Source: Clostridium sp. 1001271st1 H5
GTDB taxonomy: Bacteria; Bacillota; Clostridia; Lachnospirales; Lachnospiraceae
DNA length: 64,000 nucleotides
NCBI RefSeq assembly: GCF_005845215.1
Contig: NZ_SPHO01000001.1
Span: 171,146-235,145 of the forward strand
Direction: 5' to 3'
Shown here piece by piece: positions 1 through 25,317 of this stretch (its first letter is position 1; the number at the start of each line of letters is the position of its first letter). The translations under genes were made by a program, and so were the position numbers. Below the pieces are notes generated by a model. That model saw only the letters and a program-made list of their open reading frames with translations. It was not told the DNA's origin and did not search any database.

Positions 1-430
1 GCCACGGCAGTTACCCCCGATGGATACCTGATAGAGGTAGAGGTTGTAGGAGAGCTCGTTAGTGAAGCAATTTTAGAAGGGGCAATAGCTGGAGCTGCGG
101 CTGGTGTTTTGGCAATTGGAAATGGCTATGAGGGGGATTCTGGGACTGATGACTATAAAAACTCCAGAAGGTGGTGGCGGCGTAACAGATAACGTCAAAG
201 TTGGTGATAAAGAGGTTAGTTTCGGGTATGGTGGAAGGCATCTTGAAGGAACTGGTTTATCTGCTAATGAGGTGAATCAGGCTATTGCAAAAGATGTTGT
301 TACAAAAAATCCTGAAACAGGACAATTCTACAAAGGGCAGTTAGATGTTAATGGTGTCACAATTGAATATACATCATATGGAGTAAAGGATGGGTTAATA
401 AATGTTGGTACTTATTATCCCGTTCAGTAG
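1..430 (+). pseudogene. Polymorphic toxin C-terminal tip A, frameshifted, open at left edge
   Basis: The open left edge reads a Gly/Ala-rich pre-toxin segment (LEGAIAGAAAGVLAIGNGYEG) in frame 1, which then stops at 190-192. The toxin-like tail continues in frame 2 to the stop at 428-430, with KTPEGGGGVTDNVKVGDKEV followed by YGGRHLEGTG and ending INVGTYYPVQ. Removing one A from the A5 run at 157-161 joins the frames into GTDDYKTPEGGGG. The first ~115 bases are nearly identical to 2225-2340, so this is one of two copies of a shared pre-toxin module. The GRHLEG motif followed by an IAKDVV helix and a short beta-rich end suggests a small RNase-type toxin of the BECR kind, but I cannot name the family. 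It lies 8 bp upstream of its likely immunity gene. Confidence 0.65.
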
Positions 431-438
431 GAGGTCTA

Positions 439-819
439 ATGGCATTAGAAAATAGAGAATTGACAGATTGTGAAAAAAAGTGGATGGAATTAATCCTATC
501 TAAAAATTTTTTGTATAGAGATGAGGTGATTAATCAAATTAATTATGCAAAGGTTATTCGAGAATACACGGACTATTATTTGGCTCTGAAATTTGATATT
601 GAAGAGGGAGTACAACCAGTAAGAATAAGGACTGGAGTTCCTGTTGAGATGAGAGTATATAAAAAAGATTATATACCAGTACAATTCTTTTTGCATATTA
701 CTCGTGGATATGTTTCAGAGCTAGAGATATTTAAAGCTGATTCTTCAAATATAAAAGCGGAGTCAAGTTTAGCAGATGGAAAGGTAGAAATTTTATTAAA
801 CCCAGAAGTACTGTGTTAG
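439..819 (+). CDS. Probable immunity protein for toxin A (DUF6984-like)
   Basis: This 126-residue soluble protein starts at ATG 439 behind a perfect AGGAGG. It has no signal peptide or membrane segment. The opening ELTDCEKKWMELIL and the later LHITRGYVSELEIFKAD pattern recall DUF6984-type proteins often found as immunity genes beside polymorphic toxins. That family call is from memory and tentative. Its position 8 bp after the toxin A tip, its low GC and its small size support an antidote role: it would bind the toxin tip in the cytoplasm and protect the producer or its siblings. The next gene is more than 450 bp away and belongs to another toxin cassette. Confidence 0.55.
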   Translation: MALENRELTDCEKKWMELILSKNFLYRDEVINQINYAKVIREYTDYYLALKFDIEEGVQPVRIRTGVPVEMRVYKKDYIPVQFFLHITRGYVSELEIFKADSSNIKAESSLADGKVEILLNPEVLC

Positions 820-824
820 GCGGG

Positions 825-965
825 TTCGCCCGGCTTTGCCGGGCGATGTCCTCCGGTCGGGTGGCGTCAAGCCACCCGGCCTTTAACCCGCACACTTTTC
901 GACCCTGCGATTTTTCATGATTTCCCGGAAAAGTGAGGCTGTTTCACATCGGGCCTACGAGCCGA
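825..965. repeat. Cassette-flanking repeat R1
   Basis: This is the first of three ~140-bp repeats that follow each immunity gene. It starts with a perfect hairpin at 828-844 (GCCCGGC, TTT loop, GCCGGGC). A second hairpin lies at 859-877 (GGGTGGC, GTCAA, GCCACCC). A conserved tail follows, containing CTTTAACCCGCACACTTTTC and then a TTTCACAT box near 952. The hairpins could stop transcription from the preceding immunity gene, but no T-run follows directly. The stretch 820-1269 has no credible gene. A shorter, degenerate relative of the second hairpin and tail lies at about 1198-1250. Confidence 0.8.
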
Positions 966-1045
966 TATTCCTGGTTCATGGTATATCTTCCGAGTTCGGC
1001 CAGAAAATGGCAACACGGGCGGTAACGGCGCGTCACAGGGGCAAG
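963..1045 (+). repeat. Inverted-pair repeat, left copy (83 bp)
   Basis: This segment begins at CGATAT and ends GGGGCAAG. It is nearly the reverse complement of 2066-2147, sharing GGTTCATGGTA, CCGAGTTCGG and GGCGCGTCACAGGGGCAAG. It abuts repeat R1. The pair encloses the toxin B fragment, immunity gene B and repeat R2, so a recombination between them could invert that block. Confidence 0.75.
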
Positions 1046-1269
1046 AAAAATCATTAATTAGAAACCTCCCTGCTATGTATGTTATTTTGCCGCAAAAATT
1101 TTTATTAGCCGGGATTGCTTCTGAGCCACCCCATAATCCTTTGATTTGTGGTGTTTCAGGCGCCTTGGGTGGCAGAATCTGATTTATTTCAAAACTTGGG
1201 TGCCGCCAAGCCACCCAGCAGATTATTTTTCGACCTGTGAAATGAATACCGAAAGTGAGGAACCGGTAA

Positions 1270-1401
1270 GAAAAACGCAAGGAAAAGGAACAGGATTTGC
1301 AACCACATGAACATAATTTTCAGTATAATGAGGATGGATTGCCTAATGGAAAATCAGACGGTCCCTTAAAACCAGGGTACGATAATAAACCGACAAACTA
1401 A
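1270..1401 (+). pseudogene. Toxin B C-terminal fragment
   Basis: The frame ending at TAA 1399-1401 encodes LQPHEHNFQYNEDG followed by a GPLKPGYDNKPTN end. This matches the last ~36 residues of toxin C (LQPHEHDYHYNENG and NPLKPGYNNNPTQ, ending at 2591). The frame is closed upstream by a stop at 1267-1269 and has no start or ribosome site. Only the last ~35 residues of a toxin tip therefore remain, 9 bp in front of intact immunity gene B. This is a typical displaced or decayed toxin cassette. Confidence 0.65.
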
Positions 1402-1410
1402 GGAGGAGTT

Positions 1411-1914
1411 ATGAGTCATTTTATATTTGGTTGTTTTAAATCGGATGTAGTTGTACCCCAAATAGCTGATGAACTTAAAAAAATGGCACAAAAAAAAGAA
1501 GTTTTTATTTGGTTTGACAATGAGATAGATTTTTACTCTGAAATATCAAAAATGGCAAAAGAGCAAGGAGGGAAAGGAAAAGTTTTATTTGCATTGACAT
1601 CCCGGAATCAACCGTGTAATAGTGATGAGCTACTGTTTCCATATGACAAATATACCAATGAACAGTTGTTTGCAGATAAAACAAGAGAGTATTTTTCTCA
1701 ATGTTGTCAAGAAAATTTGGAAATTTTGTATTGGTGCTTAAAAGAAATGGTTCAAAGACTGCGGCCTAAATTATTTGAAGTGTTCATTACAGAAGGATAT
1801 GATTGTGATTTTACTAGAAAAAACATAACTTTAGATGAGATGATGCTTGATATCCAGCAACAAGTGTTAACTTCTTTTTCAATAGAATCATGCGTCTATC
1901 AAATCGAAGTTTAA
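1411..1914 (+). CDS. Immunity protein B, paralogue of the protein at 2602-3102
   Basis: This 167-residue cytoplasmic protein starts at ATG 1411 behind AGGAGG. It aligns along its whole length with the protein at 2602-3102. Both begin MS(H/Y)F(I/L)FG, share ALTS(R/L)NQPxNS near residue 70, LLFP(Y/F)DKY near residue 80, and a VxEGYD motif near residue 130. I do not recognise the family. Each copy directly follows a toxin tail ending in a (N/G)PLKPGY motif, so the pair are best read as cognate immunity proteins for two related toxins. It has low GC and no signal peptide. It is intact even though its toxin is reduced to a stub, as expected when protection against siblings is retained. Confidence 0.6.
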   Translation: MSHFIFGCFKSDVVVPQIADELKKMAQKKEVFIWFDNEIDFYSEISKMAKEQGGKGKVLFALTSRNQPCNSDELLFPYDKYTNEQLFADKTREYFSQCCQENLEILYWCLKEMVQRLRPKLFEVFITEGYDCDFTRKNITLDEMMLDIQQQVLTSFSIESCVYQIEV

Positions 1915-1928
1915 AAACCAGGGTAGCT

Positions 1929-2065
1929 ATTGCCCGGCTTTGCCGGGCGATGTCCTGTGGTCGGGTGGCATCAAGCCACCCGACCTTTAACCTGCACACA
2001 TTTCGACCCTACGATTTTTCTTGATTTTTGAAAAATTGCGGTTCTTTCACATTTGGTCCATGAGT
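1929..2065. repeat. Cassette-flanking repeat R2
   Basis: This second copy of the ~140-bp element follows immunity gene B. It has the same GCCCGGC-TTT-GCCGGGC hairpin (1932-1948) and GGGTGGC-ATCAA-GCCACCC hairpin (1963-1981), then CTTTAACCTGCACACATTTC and the TTTCACAT box. It runs straight into the right copy of the inverted pair. The stretch 1915-2130 contains only these repeats. Confidence 0.8.
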
Positions 2066-2147
2066 CTTGCCCCTGTGACGCGCCGTAACTGCCCGTGTTG
2101 CCCTTTTCCGACCGAACTCGGAGATGTACCATGAACCGGATATATCG
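2066..2147 (-). repeat. Inverted-pair repeat, right copy
   Basis: This is the reverse-oriented partner of 963-1045, reading CTTGCCCCTGTGACGCGCC through to GGATATATCG. The start of the toxin C pre-toxin frame lies inside it, so the repeat probably derives from an older toxin gene or its junction. Confidence 0.75.
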
Positions 2148-2591
2148 CCAGGCGTGTTTATATATGGCGAGGCGTGTGGACAATATGATGGGCAGCATGT
2201 TTGCAGGAAGCGGAACATATGTAACCACGGCAGTTACCCCCGATGGATACCTGATAGAGGTAGAGGTTGTAGGAGAGCTCGTTAGTGAAGCAATTTTAGA
2301 AGGGGCAATAGCTGGAGCTGCGGCTGGTGTTTTGGCAATTGAAAATGGCTATGAGGGGGTTCGATTTATGAGCAGTTAAATCCTGATGGGACAGTAAAAA
2401 GTAGAGTGTTCTATGACGAAAATGGTAATCAGTTTAACAGGCAGGATTTTGACCACACTCATTTTGATAAAAACACACAACAGAATTTGCAACCGCATGA
2501 ACATGACTATCACTACAATGAAAATGGTTATCGAGATGGTGAAATAGTAAATCCGCTTAAACCAGGGTACAATAACAATCCAACGCAGTAG
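2131..2591 (+). pseudogene. Polymorphic toxin C tip, frameshifted
   Basis: Frame 1 reads MARRVDNMMGSMFAGSGTYV, then the pre-toxin module shared with position 1, and stops at 2377-2379. Frame 3 carries on with SIYEQLNPDGTVKSRV, FYDENGNQFNRQDFDHTHFD, LQPHEHDYHYNENG and NPLKPGYNNNPTQ to the stop at 2589-2591. Adding one G to the G5 run at 2355-2359 restores YEGGSIYEQLNPDG. The tail is rich in His, Asp and Asn (DHTHFD, PHEHDYHY), which could be a metal-binding nuclease site, but that is inference. Immunity gene C follows after 10 bp. The upstream limit is uncertain because only an internal ATG is available. Confidence 0.65.
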
Positions 2592-2601
2592 AGGAGGGAC
2601 A

Positions 2602-3102
2602 ATGAGTTATTTTTTATTTGGAAAATTTGACTTTATAAAAAACAGTGAAATGATTCAGACGGTAAAATCTTATGGAAACAAGAAGGGGGTATGCTTTCTA
2701 TTTAATGAGGAAATAACAATATATGATGAAATACATAGAATGTGTAAGGAACAGGGGGTTCAAGGAAATATTACGTTTGCACTTACCTCTTTGAATCAAC
2801 CCTATAACAGTAGTGACTTGTTGTTTCCATTCGACAAATATTCTCATAATGAGTTGTTTCCGGATAATTCAAAGGAGCATTTTATAACATGTTGCAGAAG
2901 AAATATAGAACGCTTATTTGATTGTTTAAAAGCTCTAAGTGAGATATGTTGCCTTGCACAACTGAACATTTTAGTGGTTGAAGGCTATGATGATAATTTT
3001 GCAATAAAAACATGCACTTTAAAAGAAATGGAAGATGATTTACTTCTACAAATTGAGAATAATGGGTACATTGATTCATGTATTTATTGTGTAATACGGT
3101 AA
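2602..3102 (+). CDS. Immunity protein C
   Basis: This 166-residue protein starts at ATG 2602 behind GAGGAGGG. It is a clear paralogue of the protein at 1411-1914 and shares the MSYFLFG start, ALTSLNQPYNSSDLLFPFDK and VVEGYDDNF. It is soluble, low in GC and has no recognised domain name. It lies 10 bp after toxin C, so it is probably the antidote of that toxin. Divergence between the two paralogues, especially in the N-terminal third and the last 40 residues, would fit matching to different toxin tips. Confidence 0.6.
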   Translation: MSYFLFGKFDFIKNSEMIQTVKSYGNKKGVCFLFNEEITIYDEIHRMCKEQGVQGNITFALTSLNQPYNSSDLLFPFDKYSHNELFPDNSKEHFITCCRRNIERLFDCLKALSEICCLAQLNILVVEGYDDNFAIKTCTLKEMEDDLLLQIENNGYIDSCIYCVIR

Positions 3103-3300: not shown

Positions 3301-4242
3301 ATGCGTTACATAAAAACAATTATATCAATCATGATTATTGCACTTATTCTTACTGCATGCACACAAGAAAATAGCAATGAAGGAATATTAAATGTTAGTG
3401 ATGAATGGAGTGCCAAACTAATCAATCAGCCTCCCGTCATATTGTTTGATTATGACAAGAACGACAATAAGGATAGGTTTGCATTTGATTATGTTCTGTA
3501 TGATATGCAGCTTCAAGAACGAAAAAAGGAATACATTTGTACAGTGCCATATAACAAGAGCGGCGGAGGTATATATTTCGGCAAAGACAGAACTCGTATT
3601 ATGTTTGCAAGCTCAGGCGGGAAAGGGGCTGCAGATGTTGATTTGGTGACAGGAGATGTATCCTTTGTTGAACTGGGAGAAAATATTGACAGCCCAAAGT
3701 ATGTCAATGAAAATGTTATTAGTTATATCAAAGAAGGTAAAATATATGTATATAAAAAGAATCAGGAAAGACATTTATTAATTGGACAATGCCAACAGCC
3801 TGATTATAACCTGGATACATATGATTGGTTTTCTGATGGAAAGAGTATATTGTATGTTTCCAAACAGGAGGATGGGGATTATGCCCTGGCTAAAAAAAAT
3901 TTGGTAGCAGATACTTCTGAGGTGTTATTAAAACATGAAAAACAAATCTATTTTAAATTATCCAACAGCGAAACGAAGGTAATGTTAAGATGCAATGGAA
4001 AACTGTATCTGTATGATATGGAAACAAATACGATTTTAAATATAGAATTACCGGATATATATGAATCACGCATATATTCCATATGCTTTTCGCCAGATGA
4101 TAAATTTATAGTTTTTTCATGTGTGATTGATGATGGAAGTTATCTAAACAGCTATGAAATTTGGATTGTAGAAATAGATACACTTAATCAAACGATGATT
4201 TATAATAAAAAGAAAGCATCGGAGGCTGCGGTGGTGTGGTAA
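3301..4242 (+). CDS. Lipoprotein with beta-propeller-like (TolB/WD40-type) repeats
   Basis: The 313-residue product has a Lys-poor signal peptide and a lipobox LTAC ending at Cys20, so it should be a lipid-anchored surface protein. The rest is rich in beta-strand motifs of the kind seen in TolB-like propellers: SDGKSILYVS around residue 180 and SPDDKFIVFS around residue 262, each followed by aromatic and charged strands. No catalytic motif is visible. Low GC links it to the toxin array upstream rather than to the hydrolase downstream. The start at ATG 3301 follows AAAGGA. It might be a sensor or binding protein; its exact role is unknown. Confidence 0.7.
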   Translation: MRYIKTIISIMIIALILTACTQENSNEGILNVSDEWSAKLINQPPVILFDYDKNDNKDRFAFDYVLYDMQLQERKKEYICTVPYNKSGGGIYFGKDRTRIMFASSGGKGAADVDLVTGDVSFVELGENIDSPKYVNENVISYIKEGKIYVYKKNQERHLLIGQCQQPDYNLDTYDWFSDGKSILYVSKQEDGDYALAKKNLVADTSEVLLKHEKQIYFKLSNSETKVMLRCNGKLYLYDMETNTILNIELPDIYESRIYSICFSPDDKFIVFSCVIDDGSYLNSYEIWIVEIDTLNQTMIYNKKKASEAAVVW

Positions 4243-4329
4243 TATATTTTATGATATGCTTTAAAGAACGTTTGGCTGGGTATGCCGTTGGATAACGAAG
4301 ACGAGGCCAAAAGAGAACCGGCTTTGTAA

Positions 4330-4452
4330 AAACATGAATTGTCCGGAACAGAAAGAAGAAAGGCGGCAGGTTTTCTGGAAGACGCACCGCTCAGTCAGGA
4401 AGACAAAGAAAAGAATGCATATAAGAATGCAGAATTGCTGCTGAAATTGTAA
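4330..4452 (+). pseudogene. Remnant of an amidohydrolase C-terminus
   Basis: A short frame ending at TAA 4450-4452 encodes FLEDAPLSQEDKEKNAYKNA then ELLLKL. This resembles the closing helix of Amidohydro_2 proteins (pattern PLSEEDKEKI..NAEKLL). There is no start or upstream body. It lies in the otherwise empty 4243-4573 interval. The family match is by eye on about 30 residues. Confidence 0.35.
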
Positions 4453-4573: not shown

Positions 4574-5845
4574 ATGCTCATACAAAATGGAAATCAAATG
4601 CTGCAGGACTTTACAGAGAGGAATTACAGGGAAACTATATCCAGGGTGACGGAAGGCGTATGGTATGTATTGGGAATAGGCCACAGTAATGCAATCTTTA
4701 TAGAGGGGACCACAGGCATCATTTTAATCGATACGCTGGATTCAATGGAACGGGGGAAGCGGCTGCTGGAGATTATTCATGAGAAAACGGGCAAAGAGGT
4801 AAAGACGATTCTCTATACCCACGGCCACCCGGACCACAGGGGCGGCGCGGGGGCGTTTCTGGAAGGCGCACCGGAGATAATAGCATTTACCCCTAAAAAC
4901 GCTGCGCTGGAAAAAACAGGGCTCTTGAAAGATATCCAGAATCTCCGGGGAGCCAGGCAGTTTGGATACACCCTTACGGACAAAGAGGCCCTTTCACAGG
5001 GAATTGGACCGCGGGAGGGTATTATCTATGGGGAGCATCATGCTTTTGTTCCGCCAACCACGGTTTACGGGCAGGATAAGGTGGTAAGGGAAATTGACGG
5101 GGTGGAGATGGAGATAGTCCGCCTTCCGGGCGAAGCAGAGGACCAAATCATGGTATGGTTCCCCCAAAAGGCAGTGCTGTGCTGCGGTGACAACTATTAT
5201 GGCTGCTTCCCCAACCTATACGCAATCAGGGGCGGCCAGTACCGCGACCTGGCTGCGTGGATTAACAGCCTTGATGTAATTATGTCCTATCCTGCCCAAT
5301 ATCTCCTGCCAGGACACACGGCAGCCATATCCGGAAATGATACAATCCGTCAAGTGCTGGGAAATTTCAGAGACGCGATTGACTATATTCTCACCAAAAC
5401 ATTGGAGGGTATGAACATGGGCAGGAGCGCGGAAGAACTGGCCTCTGAAATACGGCTGCCGGACAAATATGCAGACCTTCCGTATCTGGCGGAACATTAT
5501 GGCTGTACGGAATGGACTGTGAGGGAAATTTATTCAGCATATTTAGGCTGGTTTGACGGGAACCCCACCAACCTTCACCCTCTGGCGCCAAAACAGCATT
5601 CCCGCAAGATGCTTGATTTAATGGGCGGAAGGACAAAGGTCTGTGAAGCGGCCCGGACAGCTCTTCAGGAACATGAATATCAGTGGTGCCTGGAACTGTG
5701 CGATTTGCTGATTACAGATGAAGCAGACAGGGAAGCTCTGCAGTTAAAGGCAGCTGCGCTGGAGAAGATTGCGGAATATGAGACCAGCGCAAATGGACGG
5801 CATTATTATATTGCATGTGCGAAGGAACTGAAAAACCTGTGCTGA
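4574..5845 (+). CDS. Alkyl-sulfatase-like metallo-beta-lactamase-fold hydrolase
   Basis: This is an MBL-fold enzyme of the SdsA/linear alkylsulfatase type. It has the zinc signature THGHPDH at about residues 82-88, a GDNYYGCFPN segment near residue 200 and LLPGHT near 240, followed by an alkyl-sulfatase dimerisation-like helical region with LHPLAPKQH. It likely hydrolyses sulfate esters or a related substrate in the cytoplasm, as no signal peptide is seen. Full SdsA enzymes are about 650 residues; this one (~423) lacks the C-terminal SCP2-like domain. I prefer ATG 4574, which has GGAGGA eight bases upstream. ATG 4541 in the same frame is the alternative. It stands alone and is followed by a terminator. 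Confidence 0.8.
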   Translation: MLIQNGNQMLQDFTERNYRETISRVTEGVWYVLGIGHSNAIFIEGTTGIILIDTLDSMERGKRLLEIIHEKTGKEVKTILYTHGHPDHRGGAGAFLEGAPEIIAFTPKNAALEKTGLLKDIQNLRGARQFGYTLTDKEALSQGIGPREGIIYGEHHAFVPPTTVYGQDKVVREIDGVEMEIVRLPGEAEDQIMVWFPQKAVLCCGDNYYGCFPNLYAIRGGQYRDLAAWINSLDVIMSYPAQYLLPGHTAAISGNDTIRQVLGNFRDAIDYILTKTLEGMNMGRSAEELASEIRLPDKYADLPYLAEHYGCTEWTVREIYSAYLGWFDGNPTNLHPLAPKQHSRKMLDLMGGRTKVCEAARTALQEHEYQWCLELCDLLITDEADREALQLKAAALEKIAEYETSANGRHYYIACAKELKNLC

Positions 5846-5892
5846 TTGTTTGAACCATTGTTAATGTAGAAGAAAATAAAGGAATAGGCATC

Positions 5893-5927
5893 GGGTGGCA
5901 GAGTCGGGAAGATTCTGCCACCCTTTT
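5893..5927 (+). terminator. Rho-independent terminator after the alkyl-sulfatase-like gene
   Basis: The stem GGGTGGCAGAGTC pairs with GATTCTGCCACCC around a GGGAA loop and is followed by TTTT. The interval 5928-6114 shows nothing else clear; a weak promoter for the recombinase may lie near 6025-6060. Confidence 0.85.
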
Positions 5928-6114
5928 ACCTGGAACGGGATAGCTGCTGACTCACTGCGGAAATGTCTGTAAGTGCACCAGCCCTCCGTAATCAATAACC
6001 CCCCGGTTTTTTGATACATAAATATGCTTTACAATAAGAAAACTAAAAAGGATATTTTGTATTCAATATGACATCAATGGTAACTTGTTAACCGGACTGG
6101 AAACGGAGGACTCA

Positions 6115-7029
6115 ATGGAAAAGGAAATGCAGCTGGCTAAATTCGAAACTTATTTGCGCTCTGAGGAAAAATCAGAATCAACCATAAGCAAATATCTCCA
6201 CGATGTGGGGGAGATGCTTGATTTTATGGGACAGGCAGGTCTGAGCAAGGATTTGCTGATGCAATACCGGGGACATCTCAGCAGCCAATGCAGGGCGTGT
6301 ACCGTGAACGGGAAACTTTCAGCCGTGAATGCATACCTTAAGTGCATGGGATTGGAGGGGCATAAAGTTAAATTCCTAAAGGTGCAAAAGAGAATCTACA
6401 TTGATGAAAAGCGGGAGCTGACAGAGCAGGACTACAGACGGCTGCTGGAAACAGCCTTCCGCATGGGGAAGCAGCAGCTTTATTTTCTTATGCTGGTTTT
6501 GTACGGGACCGGAATCCGAATCAGCGAACTGCCCTATGTGACGGTGGAGGCCATACATCAGGGCAAGGCGGAAATATATATGAAGGGAAAATACAGGGTA
6601 ATCATATTTCCAAGGAATCTGGTCAGGCAGCTTAAGGAGTACACAAGGGACGCAGATATAAAAAGCGGGTGTATCTTCAGGACAAAGGGCGGGAGATGTC
6701 TGGACAGAAGTAATATATGCCATTCCATGAAGAAAATATGCCAGGAGGCCAGGGTGGAAAAGTCAAAGGTATTTCCCCATAATTTCCGTCATCTGTTTGC
6801 AAAAAGCTTTTATGCCATTGAAAAAAATCTGGCGCATCTGGCGGATATCCTGGGACATGCTTCCATTGAGACTACACGGATTTACGTGGCCTCCAGCCTG
6901 AAACAATACGAAAAGGTAATGAACCGCATGAGAATTGCCATAGACAAAAAAGGACCACAGAATAATCATTCTGTGGTGTCATACAGACATTTCTGTAAAT
7001 CAGAAATGCAATCTCCTTGTATTTTATAA
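6115..7029 (+). CDS. Tyrosine recombinase, likely DNA invertase of the adjacent switch
   Basis: This 304-residue XerC/D-type integrase has an N-terminal SAM-like core-binding domain (residues ~1-90) and a catalytic domain with the full set of active residues: Arg135 in GTGIRISEL, Lys near 159, His222 and Arg225 in HNFRH, His248 in LGHAS and nucleophile Tyr257 in TTRIYV. I chose ATG 6115 because GGAGGA lies just upstream; a TTG at 6085 is in frame but has no ribosome site. The gene is not next to phage or transfer genes. Its last ~24 codons run into the left inverted repeat of a 274-bp segment, so inversion would swap the C-terminal tail. This points to a dedicated promoter-flipping enzyme. 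Confidence 0.85.
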   Translation: MEKEMQLAKFETYLRSEEKSESTISKYLHDVGEMLDFMGQAGLSKDLLMQYRGHLSSQCRACTVNGKLSAVNAYLKCMGLEGHKVKFLKVQKRIYIDEKRELTEQDYRRLLETAFRMGKQQLYFLMLVLYGTGIRISELPYVTVEAIHQGKAEIYMKGKYRVIIFPRNLVRQLKEYTRDADIKSGCIFRTKGGRCLDRSNICHSMKKICQEARVEKSKVFPHNFRHLFAKSFYAIEKNLAHLADILGHASIETTRIYVASSLKQYEKVMNRMRIAIDKKGPQNNHSVVSYRHFCKSEMQSPCIL

Positions 7030-7227
7030 TAAAAGACAGACCGCGTCAATATACATATATTATTTTTCCTCAAAGCAAACAGACCGGGAAGGAAAAAAAC
7101 TTCTTGCCGGTTTCTTGGTGTGTCCAAGTACTGGATTTTTCTGTATTTTATCCGTGTAATTCCTTATCGTATCCTGCCTGATACGCCTTGATGTCCGGAA
7201 AATACCGCAGAATGATTATTCTGAGGT
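6954..7227. other. Putative invertible DNA segment (promoter switch)
   Basis: The segment is bounded by inverted repeats at 6954-6977 (ACCACAGAATAATCATTCTG then TGGT) and 7204-7227 (ACCGCAGAATGATTATTCTG then AGGT). The reverse complement of the right copy matches the left at 22 of 24 positions. The shared CAGAATAATCATTCTG core is itself nearly palindromic, as expected for two recombinase-binding arms around a crossover. Inside is a minus-strand promoter but no obvious plus-strand promoter. A weak hairpin (ACCGGGAAG with CTTCTTGCCGGT, 7083-7111) may terminate the recombinase transcript. The segment lies between the recombinase and a tight three-gene operon. Confidence 0.75.
7021..7049 (-). promoter_or_regulatory. 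Promoter inside the invertible segment, now pointing at the recombinase
   Basis: On the minus strand, TTGACG (7049-7044) and TAAAAT (7026-7021) are separated by exactly 17 bases. As sequenced, transcription would run leftwards, antisense to the recombinase 3' end. After inversion about the repeats, the -35 would sit near 7132-7137 and the -10 near 7155-7160, reading rightwards into the gene at 7297. Confidence 0.65.
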
Positions 7228-7296
7228 AGTACAAATGAAACCGCCGGAGTTTTATGCACCGCAGGACTGGTGCTGTTTGAAAAAGGAGAAATAGAG

Positions 7297-7542
7297 ATGG
7301 TGAGCTGTTCCCTGTTAGAGTATCTGGCCTTGAAGGCAAAATGTGAATATCTGTCGGATTTAAGATTCATGCGCGTGGATGAAAGGTGGCTGAGGGAATT
7401 CATACTGCGAAGCAGGGATGATTTTACCCGGGATGAATGGAAGGAGGCGTGCGTCTATCTGACAGGACAGAAGGTATTGACTGAGGACGAGGCAATCAGA
7501 ACACTCCTGCAGCACTGGGCAAATAAAACAGATACGATTTGA
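7297..7542 (+). CDS. Small protein of unknown function, first gene of the switch operon
   Basis: This 81-residue protein starts at ATG 7297 behind AAAGGAG. It is helical and charged, with LLEYLALKAKCEYLSDLRF at the start and RDDFTRDEWKEACVYLTG in the middle. There is no signal peptide or membrane segment. I recognise no family. No promoter is visible between the right inverted repeat and this gene. It is followed after 12 bp by the next gene, so the two are almost certainly co-transcribed. It could be a small adaptor or regulator, but nothing in the sequence proves it. Confidence 0.6.
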   Translation: MVSCSLLEYLALKAKCEYLSDLRFMRVDERWLREFILRSRDDFTRDEWKEACVYLTGQKVLTEDEAIRTLLQHWANKTDTI

Positions 7543-7554
7543 TGGGAGGAGACA

Positions 7555-8064
7555 GTGGCAAGAATTGAAAAATATATTATCATGGAGGATGATATTCCCC
7601 GCGACGGCGGTCCTTACCCTGAATATACATATACGTTTCTGGTTGGCATCCAGTCATTTGACGGCAGGGCTGCCAGGGGATATGTAAAGTCATTCCATGT
7701 GGAGGAATTATTGTTTTTTCAGGGACTTGACCAGATGATTTTTATTATGGAGGATATTATGGATGCAGTGGGCGTCCCCATGAGGGGAAGGGCCCCGCGT
7801 AGTCTGACCGGGAAACAGTGCCCGGGGAACAGGACTGTCCCGTTCGTGGATTTGCAGGGCAGAATAAAAAAGGATTATGATTTTGCCCGTGAGGAATTAA
7901 GGGAATACCCGGTATGTCCCATGGTATCGGTCCGGGTAGCCGGACGTCGGGATGCAGGGATGCAGGGGATATTCCGGACAGGGTTTGGGGATGTAAGATT
8001 CCGGAGCGGAGTGGAGCTTATGCGCCTGATGTATGAGCTGTTTGACATTTGCTCCAACAGATAA
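7555..8064 (+). CDS. Protein of unknown function, second gene of the switch operon
   Basis: This 169-residue protein has a GTG start at 7555 with GGGAGGAG upstream. It is mixed alpha/beta, with IEKYIIMEDDIPRDGGPYPE at the N-terminus, FHVEELLFFQGLDQMIFIME around residues 50-70, and a basic C-terminal half (RVAGRRDAG, FRTGFGDVRFRSG). It has no signal or membrane segment and no family I know. The gene sits between the 81-residue protein and the TrmH-type methyltransferase with short gaps on both sides (12 bp and 35 bp), so it probably works with them and shares their on/off control. Confidence 0.6.
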   Translation: MARIEKYIIMEDDIPRDGGPYPEYTYTFLVGIQSFDGRAARGYVKSFHVEELLFFQGLDQMIFIMEDIMDAVGVPMRGRAPRSLTGKQCPGNRTVPFVDLQGRIKKDYDFAREELREYPVCPMVSVRVAGRRDAGMQGIFRTGFGDVRFRSGVELMRLMYELFDICSNR

Positions 8065-8099
8065 TAGAATATAGGGAAAACGGTAGTCAGGAGATACCA

Positions 8100-8924
8100 A
8101 TGCCAAATATAATTGAGATAACGGATTTTGCCGCCCCGGAGCTGGATGTTTACGCCCGGCTTACAGAGGGGCAGCTGTTAAACCGCCACCAACCGGACAA
8201 GGGCATTTTCATAGCGGAAAGTCCCAAGGTTATAGAGCGCGCCCTGAACGCGGGGTGTGTCCCTATATCCATGCTGATGGAAAGAAAACATGTGGAGAGC
8301 CAGGCCAGGGAAATCATCAGCCGATGCGGTGATATTCCGGTGTATACGGCGGAATTTGACGTGCTGACACAGCTCACCGGATTTCATCTTACGCGGGGCA
8401 TGCTGTGCGCAATGTACCGTCCGCCGCTGCGCAGGACAGAAGAAATCTGTGCAGGCGCGCGGCGGATTGCAGTGCTGGAAAATGTCATGAATCCCACCAA
8501 TGTGGGCGCCATCTTCCGTTCGGCCGCTGCCCTGAACATGGATGGAGTCCTGCTGACATCAGCCTGCAGCAATCCGCTGTACCGCCGCGCCATCCGGGTG
8601 AGCATGGGGACTGTATTCCAGATACCCTGGACCTTTCTGGACAGCGGGTTATGCTGGCCTCAGGAGGGAATCGGGCGTTTGCATGAGCTGGGATTTAAAA
8701 CTGCGGCAATGGCTTTAAAGGATGATTCGGTCACCATTGATGATGCGGGATTGATGTCGGAGGAAAAGCTGGCCATTATCCTGGGCACGGAAGGGGACGG
8801 GCTGGCGGCAGGGACCATTGCCGACTGCGATTACACGGTCCGCATTCCCATGGCCCATGGAGTGGATTCCCTGAATGTGGCGGCTGCAAGCGCGGTTGCT
8901 TTTTGGCAGCTGGGCCGCAGGTAA
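8100..8924 (+). CDS. TrmH/SpoU-family RNA 2'-O-methyltransferase
   Basis: The 274-residue protein fits the SPOUT class. An N-terminal substrate-binding domain (residues ~1-115, with KGIFIAESPKVIERAL) is followed by a knotted catalytic domain with motif 1 NVMNPTNVGAIFRSA (~137), motif 2 LGTEGDGL (~232) and motif 3 IPMAHGVDSLNVAAA (~250). These enzymes transfer methyl from SAM to a ribose 2'-hydroxyl of rRNA or tRNA; the target here cannot be read from sequence. ATG 8100 has AGGAGA upstream and is preferred to an ATG at 8049 inside the preceding gene. As the last gene of an operon that seems to depend on an invertible promoter, it may be expressed in only part of the population. Confidence 0.85.
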   Translation: MPNIIEITDFAAPELDVYARLTEGQLLNRHQPDKGIFIAESPKVIERALNAGCVPISMLMERKHVESQAREIISRCGDIPVYTAEFDVLTQLTGFHLTRGMLCAMYRPPLRRTEEICAGARRIAVLENVMNPTNVGAIFRSAAALNMDGVLLTSACSNPLYRRAIRVSMGTVFQIPWTFLDSGLCWPQEGIGRLHELGFKTAAMALKDDSVTIDDAGLMSEEKLAIILGTEGDGLAAGTIADCDYTVRIPMAHGVDSLNVAAASAVAFWQLGRR

Positions 8925-9044
8925 ATAATGATTACATAGCAAAGGTGCAGGAACCCTGCCATGATTCGTGTTGACCCGGAAGACGGCCAGACGGGCAAGG
9001 CGGACGTGGAAGTGTGGAAGGTTCCGGTGGAGTGAGCTGCAATA

Positions 9045-10517
9045 CTATGTGTCCTCATCAGAAATCAATAGCCGGATAGAGGGATTCAGCCTCAAATCCT
9101 CAGGCTGGAGTCCCTGGTTTAAAAGATATTGTTCCGCTGCCGGAAACTGCTGTGTAACCAGGATTTTTATGGCCTGGCAGCAGCCGGCAATATCATCTCC
9201 CTTCAGACCCTGAATCATTGTGTCAGTGAAGCGGAGGATTGCCTCATCTAAAGCCGGATTGCCATCGTGGGATGCTTTCAGCGGATAACCCCACAGGAAC
9301 AGACTGTAGATACGGCCGTAAATTTCACGTATCCCCTTTAACGGGCTGCATTTTGTGACGAAGAGCAGGCAGCGCCAAAGGGATAGTTCCTGACGGCCAT
9401 GGGCCAGGTCCTGTTCCAGCTGGCTGGTAAGTCTGCTTTTTTCCTCCCGTGAGGCAGAGGACAGGCAGTGCTGCATTACGGTTTCACAGGAATAAACCAG
9501 CAGCTCAAAGGACTGGAAGAAGAAGGCCAGATTGCGGCGGACCACAGGGCTTGTAAAGTCAGGGGAATCACAGTGCGCGCCGATTCCAAAGACCATGGTC
9601 CCCTTTCCGTTGATGGAACGGACTGCCCCCAGCTGGTTGAGAACCTTGACGGTGCGGCGTATGGTGCTGACCGAGACGCCGTAGGCTGCAGCCATATTCT
9701 CATAAGAAGGCAGGAATTCTGCCACCCGGTAGCAGCCCATATAGATTTCATGAAGAAGCCAGGCTGCCAGGCTGTAGCATACCTGAGGCCGTTCGCGGTA
9801 TATCCGCCACACAAAAGGGATGTGTTCCACGTTCTCTGCTGGTGGAATCCGCTGGGTCAGGAGGTCCACAGCCCTGCCGATGGAATCCTGACGGAATATT
9901 TGGAGCTGCCGGGCCAGCTGGTTCCATTCCTTATTTTCAGCAAGGAGGACACAGTGCTCTATCTCATCATGCAGCAGGGCCACATCGTTTAAATCCTTTC
10001 CGTCATCGTGCTTTAAGAATAGCAGGCCCCAGTATATGGACGCCTCCCAGTAAAGGTTCATGACCAGGGGATTGTCGATTTTTTGAAGGACAAAACAGAA
10101 AAAATGGAGTACATCATCCGTACATGACCCCTCTGCCAGGCGGGCAAGGCAGGCCAGGTCCCTTTCATCGGCCCGGTAAAAGCTCTCCGTGAGCAGGGGA
10201 TGCATAATCAGGCCCACTGATTGAAACAGGTCCTGGAAGCTGTGAATCCTGCAGGAAAAATAGCGCAGGATGCACTGGTTTGAGGTTTCCTGGTCCTGTT
10301 GGAATATAACCTTTGTGGAACGGCCGTTGTGCATGTCGATATATCCTTCCGAACGCAGGCGCTTCAGGGCCATCTTTACTGTCTGGGCAGACACGCAGAG
10401 TTCGCGGCACAGGGTGTCAATGGAGGGGAGACAGTCCCCGCATTTATAATAACGGAATTGAATCCGGGTAAGAAAATATTCGTAGACAAGATTTGAATAC
10501 TGCTGTTCACTTTGCAA
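9045..10517 (-). CDS. GntR-type transcriptional regulator with two winged-helix domains
   Basis: The 490-residue protein begins with a GntR winged helix (residues ~1-70: CLPSIDTLCRELCVSAQTVK, then ALKRLRSEGY). A second winged helix lies around residues 245-305 (FLPSYENMAAAYGVSVSTIR, then TVKVLNQLGA and NGKGTMVFG). The remaining helical blocks match no effector domain I know. Two DNA-binding domains in one chain could span two half-sites. The start is TTG 10517, supported by GAGGAG about nine bases upstream; the nearby ATG reads only five codons. It is divergent from the hybrid histidine kinase at 10752, with a shared 234-bp control region. Confidence 0.75.
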   Translation of the reverse strand: MQSEQQYSNLVYEYFLTRIQFRYYKCGDCLPSIDTLCRELCVSAQTVKMALKRLRSEGYIDMHNGRSTKVIFQQDQETSNQCILRYFSCRIHSFQDLFQSVGLIMHPLLTESFYRADERDLACLARLAEGSCTDDVLHFFCFVLQKIDNPLVMNLYWEASIYWGLLFLKHDDGKDLNDVALLHDEIEHCVLLAENKEWNQLARQLQIFRQDSIGRAVDLLTQRIPPAENVEHIPFVWRIYRERPQVCYSLAAWLLHEIYMGCYRVAEFLPSYENMAAAYGVSVSTIRRTVKVLNQLGAVRSINGKGTMVFGIGAHCDSPDFTSPVVRRNLAFFFQSFELLVYSCETVMQHCLSSASREEKSRLTSQLEQDLAHGRQELSLWRCLLFVTKCSPLKGIREIYGRIYSLFLWGYPLKASHDGNPALDEAILRFTDTMIQGLKGDDIAGCCQAIKILVTQQFPAAEQYLLNQGLQPEDLRLNPSIRLLISDEDT

Positions 10518-25017: not shown

Positions 25018-25317
25018 ATAAAGAATGCCATGAAGGAGACCAGTAGTACAGAGGCTTTTCTCACAGAGAGCGTCCGGTTGGTGGAAGGACGCAGGAAACA
25101 CTGTATGAATACGCTCCGGAGCAGCAGCCTGAAATGGTCAGAGTGTGTCTGAATATTGTTGTTTGCCGCACTCAGGTAGGGTTTGACGGGAACGCCCGAT
25201 ACAGCGTGAGAGTGTTGACTGACACTCGATGAGGAATGTTCTGTGAAGGATGTTCAAGTACAGAGGTGGTACCGCATAACCTGCCCTCTGCAGCAAGCTG
25301 CTGCAGGGGCTTTTTTT
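25018..25317 (+). promoter_or_regulatory. T-box riboswitch controlling tyrS
   Basis: The leader carries the conserved T-box CAGAGGTGGTACCGC (25261-25275), which pairs with the uncharged tRNA acceptor end. It is followed by a terminator (GCCCTCTGCAGC, AAG, CTGCTGCAGGGGC, then T7, 25283-25317). Upstream, the Stem I region holds a GAATACG sequence near 25107, giving a UAC tyrosine specifier. A TGC-TATACT extended -10 at 25000-25008 is the likely promoter. Uncharged tRNA-Tyr should favour the antiterminator and switch tyrS on. Confidence 0.9.

Follow-up and report, generated by a model that had tools for sequence, protein, structure and literature searches.

The question raised by this locus is whether a pair of short inverted repeats at the 3' end of a tyrosine recombinase gene forms a promoter switch and, if it does, which genes the switch would control. 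The locus lies in a stretch of 64,000 nucleotides from Clostridium sp. 1001271st1 H5 (contig NZ_SPHO01000001.1, positions 171,146 to 235,145), which we call the window and whose own numbering is used here. We conclude, with a probability of about 0.88, that it is a phase-variation cassette in which the adjacent recombinase inverts a promoter segment, switching two small genes that we name Orf81 and Orf169.

An earlier note on this DNA, made from its letters alone, had described 24-base-pair (bp) inverted repeats at 6954-6977 and 7204-7227 that match at 22 of 24 positions, and we could confirm them to the base. Among 24-mers up to about 600 bp apart in the whole window, this pair alone reaches 22 matches, and no such pair was found in any of five dinucleotide-shuffled windows. 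Both arms are individually palindromic, so that the direction of the pair resides only in the 4-bp centre and a few arm differences. The promoter TTGACG-17-TAAAAT that the note had placed between the repeats on the minus strand is present (10/12), and a promoter-like site is found at the same place in the closest sister loci. In agreement with the note, the scan gave zero plus-strand sites at its threshold in 7228-7297, between the right repeat and the next gene. Promoter-like matches are frequent in this region, with 17 in 5500-10000 against 6.1 expected. An inverton is recognised by short inverted repeats around a segment of a few hundred bp and by a promoter whose direction changes on inversion; the repeats surround such a segment here, and the change of direction appears in the comparison of the window (OFF) with an orthologous locus, L051 (ON). 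Taken from its repeats, the inverting segment is 274 bp long and the state of the window reads as OFF.

The evidence for a change of direction comes from this ortholog, in which the segment is found turned around. The closest relative of the recombinase, with 88% identity (245 of 277 residues), is L011, on the same contig as G013:C18, that is L051, which belongs to another species of the genus and is collinear with the window locus (L051 positions are counted on the recombinase strand, as in L011). The flanks of L051 and of the window match in plus orientation as far as window position 6979 and from 7202 onward; window 6954-7127 matches L051 4702-4530 in minus orientation, and this match starts at the outer edges of the repeats. 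When the two spacers are aligned inverted, 172 of 221 positions are identical and the score is 100.5, against -16.5 for the direct alignment and -11.5 for the best of 100 shuffles. Because the L051 spacer is inverted between collinear flanks, the segment does invert in evolution, with its breakpoints at the repeats. The L051 promoter, TTGACG-17-TAGAAT, faces the downstream genes, which supports the proposal of the earlier note that the operon is OFF as sequenced and would turn ON by a 274-bp inversion. Inverted relationships are found in other loci as well: among 33 related locus pairs compared, 12 were inverted, 19 had the same orientation and two were unclear. The 12 inverted pairs reflect about five separate flips (L051; L097; L077 against L069/L075; L059; L065/L068), one of the two pairs of L059 being marginal, with a score for L059/L061 just above the shuffles.

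The enzyme that would carry out the inversion appears to be intact. In agreement with the note, which had described a complete tyrosine recombinase, we found a Phage_integrase domain (Pfam, 7.6e-23), a SAM-like N-terminal domain and a full catalytic set (R135, K159, H222, R225, H248, and Y257), and this R-K-H-R-H-Y set, by which Xer-type enzymes are recognised, lies in the Phage_integrase domain. The catalytic residues are invariant in 50 aligned recombinases, that of the window included, except for K159, which is K in 45 and R in five. A match to a XerA-like protein was obtained (4a8e, E 1.1e-20). The scores against the NCBIfam Xer equivalogs fall short of their cut-offs (XerA 123 vs 220 bits, XerD 98 vs 330, XerC 97 vs 335), and the protein is therefore a Xer relative and not the chromosome-dimer resolvase itself. 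The ratio of non-synonymous to synonymous substitution rates (dN/dS) against L051 is 0.082 for residues 1-277 of the recombinase, 0.21 for Orf81, and 0.14 for Orf169, and these ratios indicate that the three genes are under purifying selection between the window and L051.

We then compared the sites of 52 loci, which comprise the window, 49 of the 50 places listed above 200 bits in 61 genomes, and two fragments. A cognate palindromic pair lies 3' of the recombinase in 46 of them, with spacers of 118-334 bp. The sites fall by a simple rule into three classes, which were set against a tree of 50 recombinases: the 15 loci of the ACC class are all in one recombinase clade (100/100), and the same holds for the 11 loci of the TACAAC class (100/99), a pattern that points to co-evolution of recombinase and site. 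The six central bases are identical between partners in all 45 labelled loci, and the number of distinct left centres is 8, 7, and 16 in the three classes. Mismatches between partners number 0 of 270 in the centres vs 25 of 806 in the arms, and strand exchange by a tyrosine recombinase demands matching centres. This contrast between centre and arm is safer than the match within each locus, because the pairs were picked as inverted repeats. In the window's own genome, the seven sites found at up to three mismatches are all beside the three closest recombinases (paralogs), and a reversed control pattern gave no matches there. The exact site occurs in 4 of 80 family genomes, the own genome included, and the control pattern in none. 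One of the own-genome sites, G000:C9:95455-95478, which belongs to a distant capsule-type switch, is identical over 24 bases to window 6954-6977; the two switches may therefore recombine with each other or be controlled jointly by two recombinases.

The left site is also part of the recombinase gene. The frame crosses the left arm and stops within the segment, and because it enters the invertible segment through this site, the last residues of the protein would vary with orientation. The same crossing is found in the nine closest loci (in L056 for the first copy only), and of the other six ACC-class loci five have frames that stop before the site and one (L059) a frame that stops at its edge. 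An orientation-dependent C-terminal tail that controls activity was considered and is not claimed, because the residues past the site are short and poorly conserved and the other ACC-class frames end before or at the site.

Several loci of the family have further rearrangements around the segment. L013/L056 (E. citroniae) contains an N run inside the switch and a second segment copy behind it, which either a mixed population or a misassembly could explain. In the turned loci L052 (3886-4243), L053, L054, and L055, two to three tandem palindromic sites, 42 bp apart, are on one side, so more than one inversion end point would be possible. The turned locus L070 carries behind its recombinase a 268-base inverted duplication (3538-3805 and 4145-4412, 267 matches) that contains further sites.

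The left palindrome could have a second function as a terminator. Its outer flank, followed in the direction of the OFF promoter, contains 7-10 T in 12 positions, vs 0-4 at the right-most palindrome, in nine of the nine closest loci. On the other strand this run is coding, and the lysine codons there are 10 AAA and 0 AAG, vs 133 AAA and 119 AAG in the gene bodies (Fisher p 0.0023), which suggests a constraint on the DNA and not on the protein alone. With its flanks, the left-site hairpin folds at -13.2 kcal/mol (z -3.3). Taken together with the conserved T-runs, the left palindrome is a probable terminator of the OFF-state transcript. In a wider comparison of the 45 loci that have both flanks (the 46 with a pair, less L086, where the contig ends at the site), the mean number of T in 10 positions is 4.4 on the left vs 2.5 on the right, with some loci of other classes reversed. 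As the contrast is weaker over these 45 loci and a number of them go the other way, we claim the terminator role for the nine closest loci only. A second hairpin, CCGG...CCGG, occupies a nearly constant position upstream of the promoter in all nine of these loci, and 88.9% of the cells pair in its assigned stem. With flanks, it folds at -15.4 kcal/mol on the plus strand (z -2.6) vs -9.1 on the minus strand (z -1.0). The plus strand thus gives the better fold, and of the two halves of this proposal the one on insulation in the ON state is less secure.

According to the mechanism that we propose, the recombinase most likely binds the two palindromic sites, and strand exchange within their shared asymmetric centre would invert the 274-bp segment. 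In the OFF state the promoter would fire back toward the 3' end of the recombinase gene, and its transcript probably ends at once, because a T-run follows the left palindrome on that strand. In the ON state transcription from the inverted promoter would cross the right palindrome, where a T-run is lacking, and enter Orf81 and Orf169, and the hairpin upstream of the promoter probably keeps transcription of the recombinase gene out of the target genes. The features of the cassette and its surroundings are collected in Table 1.

Table 1. Features of the putative promoter switch and adjacent genes, in window positions (aa, amino acids; pLDDT, predicted local distance difference test)
Feature	Position	Strand	Remarks
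Intrinsic-terminator-like hairpin	5893-5923	plus	13-bp stem, then TTTT; between upstream gene and recombinase gene
Tyrosine recombinase, XerA-like, 304 aa	6115-7029	plus	Pfam PF00589/PF02899
A-run outside left site	6946-6951	plus	T-run past the palindrome for minus-strand transcripts; terminator-like
Left palindromic recombination site	6954-6977		ACCACAGAAT-AATC-ATTCTGTGGT
Invertible spacer, 226 bp	6978-7203		opposite orientation in ortholog L051
Promoter TTGACG-17-TAAAAT	7049 to 7021	minus	10/12 match; faces recombinase (OFF)
Hairpin upstream of promoter, probable insulator/terminator	7081-7113		CCGG...CCGG stem
Right palindromic recombination site	7204-7227		outer flank without T-run
Orf81	7297-7542	plus	first gene behind switch; modelled as five helices, pLDDT 81
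Orf169	7555-8064	plus	two beta-beta-beta-alpha units (model, pLDDT 73); unnamed family
Promoter-like TTGACA-17-TAGAAT	8042-8070	plus	11/12; before methyltransferase gene, overlaps Orf169 end
SpoU/TrmH-family RNA methyltransferase gene	8100-8924	plus	PF00588

With respect to the genes that would be controlled, relatives of Orf81 lie behind the repeats in 7 of the 52 loci (the window and six others) and relatives of Orf169 in 11 (the window and ten others), and the two occur together in the window and L051 only. The CpsB/CapC start motif of L052 was found on a nearby gene in 7 of the 52 loci, and in L052, L053, and L056 a CpsB-like gene and other genes of polysaccharide type come after the Orf169 homolog; the window has no such genes there. 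Representatives of the downstream genes matched CpsB_CapC, Wzz, Polysacc_synt_2, SpaA, FIVAR, choline-binding repeats, sortase, signal peptidase, and BTAD above the Pfam cut-offs, and AP2 (L069) and flagellar rod (L082) under them; one was without a match. Judged by the company they keep, Orf81 and Orf169 recur as the first genes of surface operons under phase variation; here they are present without such an operon, and they may regulate surface structures. For Orf169, HicB-like and triphosphate-tunnel folds were considered, with no confident structural match. A more extended proposal joins these elements: the palindromes would be at once strand-exchange sites and terminator hairpins, with a T-run solely on the outer flank beside the recombinase, and would so silence the OFF-facing promoter; Orf81 and Orf169 would be orphan regulators, not surface structures, and might control in trans the cell's other surface loci that are phase-variable; and the recombinases might cross-flip, as the identical site on C9 would allow. 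This combination is speculative, and we consider it doubtful as a whole.

Two unusual arrangements were also seen. In L159 (G031:C35:53000-66000) an Orf169 relative and its neighbours form a mirror-image duplication, the two oppositely oriented copies being separated by about 400 bp; this is either a real palindrome or an assembly artefact. In G005:C1:1807423-1808232 (L165) there is a broken remnant of the same cassette, about 6 kb from the methyltransferase gene.

Some of our results weigh against the proposed switch or parts of it. No cognate pair was found in 6 of the 52 loci (L074, L079, L084, L094, L096, and L100); the contig of L096 ends 118 bases past the gene and L100 is a fragment, and the other four have no such excuse. 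The repeat pairs were obtained from exact 9-base seeds and chosen by identity, with their ends typed by hand, a procedure that is biased to identical arms. The CATAAT class (19 loci) changes seven times on the tree, vs 15.4 times in shuffles, and one of its members, L085, has mixed arms. Covariation in the CCGG hairpin is modest, as changes on both sides were found in three of nine pairs (78 of 500 shuffles were as high) and its covariation score was reached in 22 of 500 shuffles. Weak plus-strand promoter-like sites (9/12) at 6935-6963, 6941-6969, and 7033-7061 lie upstream of the segment or inside it. L051 belongs to a metagenome-assembled genome. When the window's own assembly was searched, it gave a single full-length copy of the segment in a single orientation. 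Finally, Orf81 and Orf169 gave no named family and no confident fold match in sequence and structure searches.

One alternative is a relic or locked switch, one that inverted in the past and no longer does so in this strain, with the small genes left over from a lost surface operon. The polysaccharide-type genes that follow the Orf169 homolog in L052, L053, and L056, and not here, would fit such a loss, as would the relative G005, which retains broken cassette pieces only; the presence of the catalytic residues, the identical site centres, the intact promoter match, and the dN/dS values of the three genes in the comparison with L051 (0.08 to 0.21) make it improbable. Two other readings were considered. 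The repeats could be paired terminators, or the operators of a regulator, given that each arm folds as a hairpin and a minus-strand T-run comes after the left one. Under this explanation it would be hard to understand why the ortholog has its spacer inverted and collinearity changes just at the repeats, or why the centres match within loci and differ between loci, and we reject it on these grounds; the restriction of the own-genome sites to places beside these recombinases makes it more improbable still, and it is very unlikely. The Phage_integrase domain, and the absence of the cassette beside the methyltransferase gene in G002, would suit the integrase of a small mobile element with the repeats as its attachment sites, had the centres not been in inverted order, which predicts inversion and not excision. 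Since, in addition, the best matches are Xer-like and no recognised mobile-element gene is between the sites or directly beside them, this explanation is rejected too, and we regard it as barely credible.

The remaining alternative accepts the inversion and concerns its target. The range given in the earlier note runs to 8924; Orf81 and Orf169 stand as the likely targets, and the last gene in that range is probably outside the switch. Matches to this SpoU/TrmH gene were found in 60 of the 61 genomes, above 300 bits in 15 of the 17 genomes of the genus, and among those 15 it lies directly behind a listed recombinase only in the window's genome and in G013. If the ON transcript passed Orf169 into this gene and set its level, the cassette would be a phase-variable RNA 2'-O-methyltransferase, and the gap of just 35 bases between the two genes invites this idea. 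So does the upstream stretch kept in L051, G002, and G005, which is missing in the window. However, a strong promoter-like site (11/12) is found just upstream of the gene, and L051, which has the same cassette, retains before the methyltransferase gene the ancestral upstream region of G002 and G005, with TATACTATAAT, these two genomes having no intact cassette there. Together with the rarity of the arrangement in the genus, this makes control of the methyltransferase unlikely. From these comparisons, the gene at 8100 is probably a neighbour that has a promoter of its own and lies outside the switch, and read-through into it in the ON state is possible. The explanation that we prefer is thus the inversion of a promoter segment by the adjacent recombinase, with Orf81 and Orf169 as its probable targets.

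Elsewhere in the window we noticed a T-box leader on the plus strand (25021-25291, 106.9 bits) and, at 104-3102, a small open reading frame, a DUF6984 protein, and two proteins of 166-167 amino acids with similar starts; DUF6984 was the one family named by a search of this region, which looks like a toxin-immunity tail region.

The interest of this locus lies in its family, whose roughly 50 members allow recombinase, site, promoter, terminator, and target to be set side by side. The comparison yields rules that are testable: a site class for each recombinase clade, a crossover centre that is free but matched, and a palindrome that possibly doubles as a terminator. These rules would aid in finding such switches and in reading their state from assemblies. 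They also draw attention to two protein families, both uncharacterised, whose genes come first in phase-variable operons for capsules and adhesins. Among the papers that our literature searches listed, none dealt with switches in this genus. Promoter-flipping switches of gut Clostridia have been catalogued from reads, and the kind of switch described here is already in print, because PMC11892184, in the part on which we draw, reports invertons from Clostridia linked to a tyrosine-type recombinase group (inverton group 139, 32 of 33 from Clostridia, with a repeat motif termed novel).

The locus shares several features with that group, which is paired with invertase group 35 (hCom2): as here, a short invertible segment lies beside a tyrosine-type recombinase in Clostridia, and the recombinase gene is in the non-regulatable orientation. 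The example from Clostridium sp. D5, with 26-bp repeats 205 bp apart, has the sizes of L088, a likeness of size and layout. Unlike here, the account of groups 139 and 35, in the part of the source used, is without palindromic sites in a terminator role and without Orf81 and Orf169 genes (PMC11892184). Functional precedents, also for termination linked to orientation, are RecV and the fim switch. In Clostridioides difficile, according to the sections of the reports used here, RecV is likewise a XerC/XerD-type tyrosine recombinase that acts on phase-variable surface genes (cwpV, flagellar; PMC2784873, PMC7446863). Its switch has imperfect 21-bp inverted repeats 195 bp apart and involves transcription termination, as we propose here, but in cwpV it is the terminator that acts as the switch, the promoter lying outside the invertible segment; moreover, RecV acts at at least two loci, whereas each recombinase adjoins its own pair in our family (PMC2784873). 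The fim switch of Escherichia coli (FimB/FimE), as outlined in the same source, also has a promoter between inverted repeats and termination linked to orientation, and it differs in using two recombinases (PMC2784873). The window recombinase matched the NCBIfam models of tyrosine-type DNA invertases weakly (22 bits, with cut-offs of 221 and 222). In the invertible promoters of UpxY in Bacteroidota, from the passages of PMC11892184 used, the promoter flips before a small first gene, and genes of polysaccharide type likewise stand behind the first gene in our sister loci L052, L053, and L056; as Orf169, unlike UpxY, is without an accepted match to a named family, the analogy between the two is a guess. 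To what is known of such switches, the present comparison adds the probable terminator role of the left palindrome, the two small genes as putative targets, and the assignment of the gene at 8100 as probably a neighbour of the switch.

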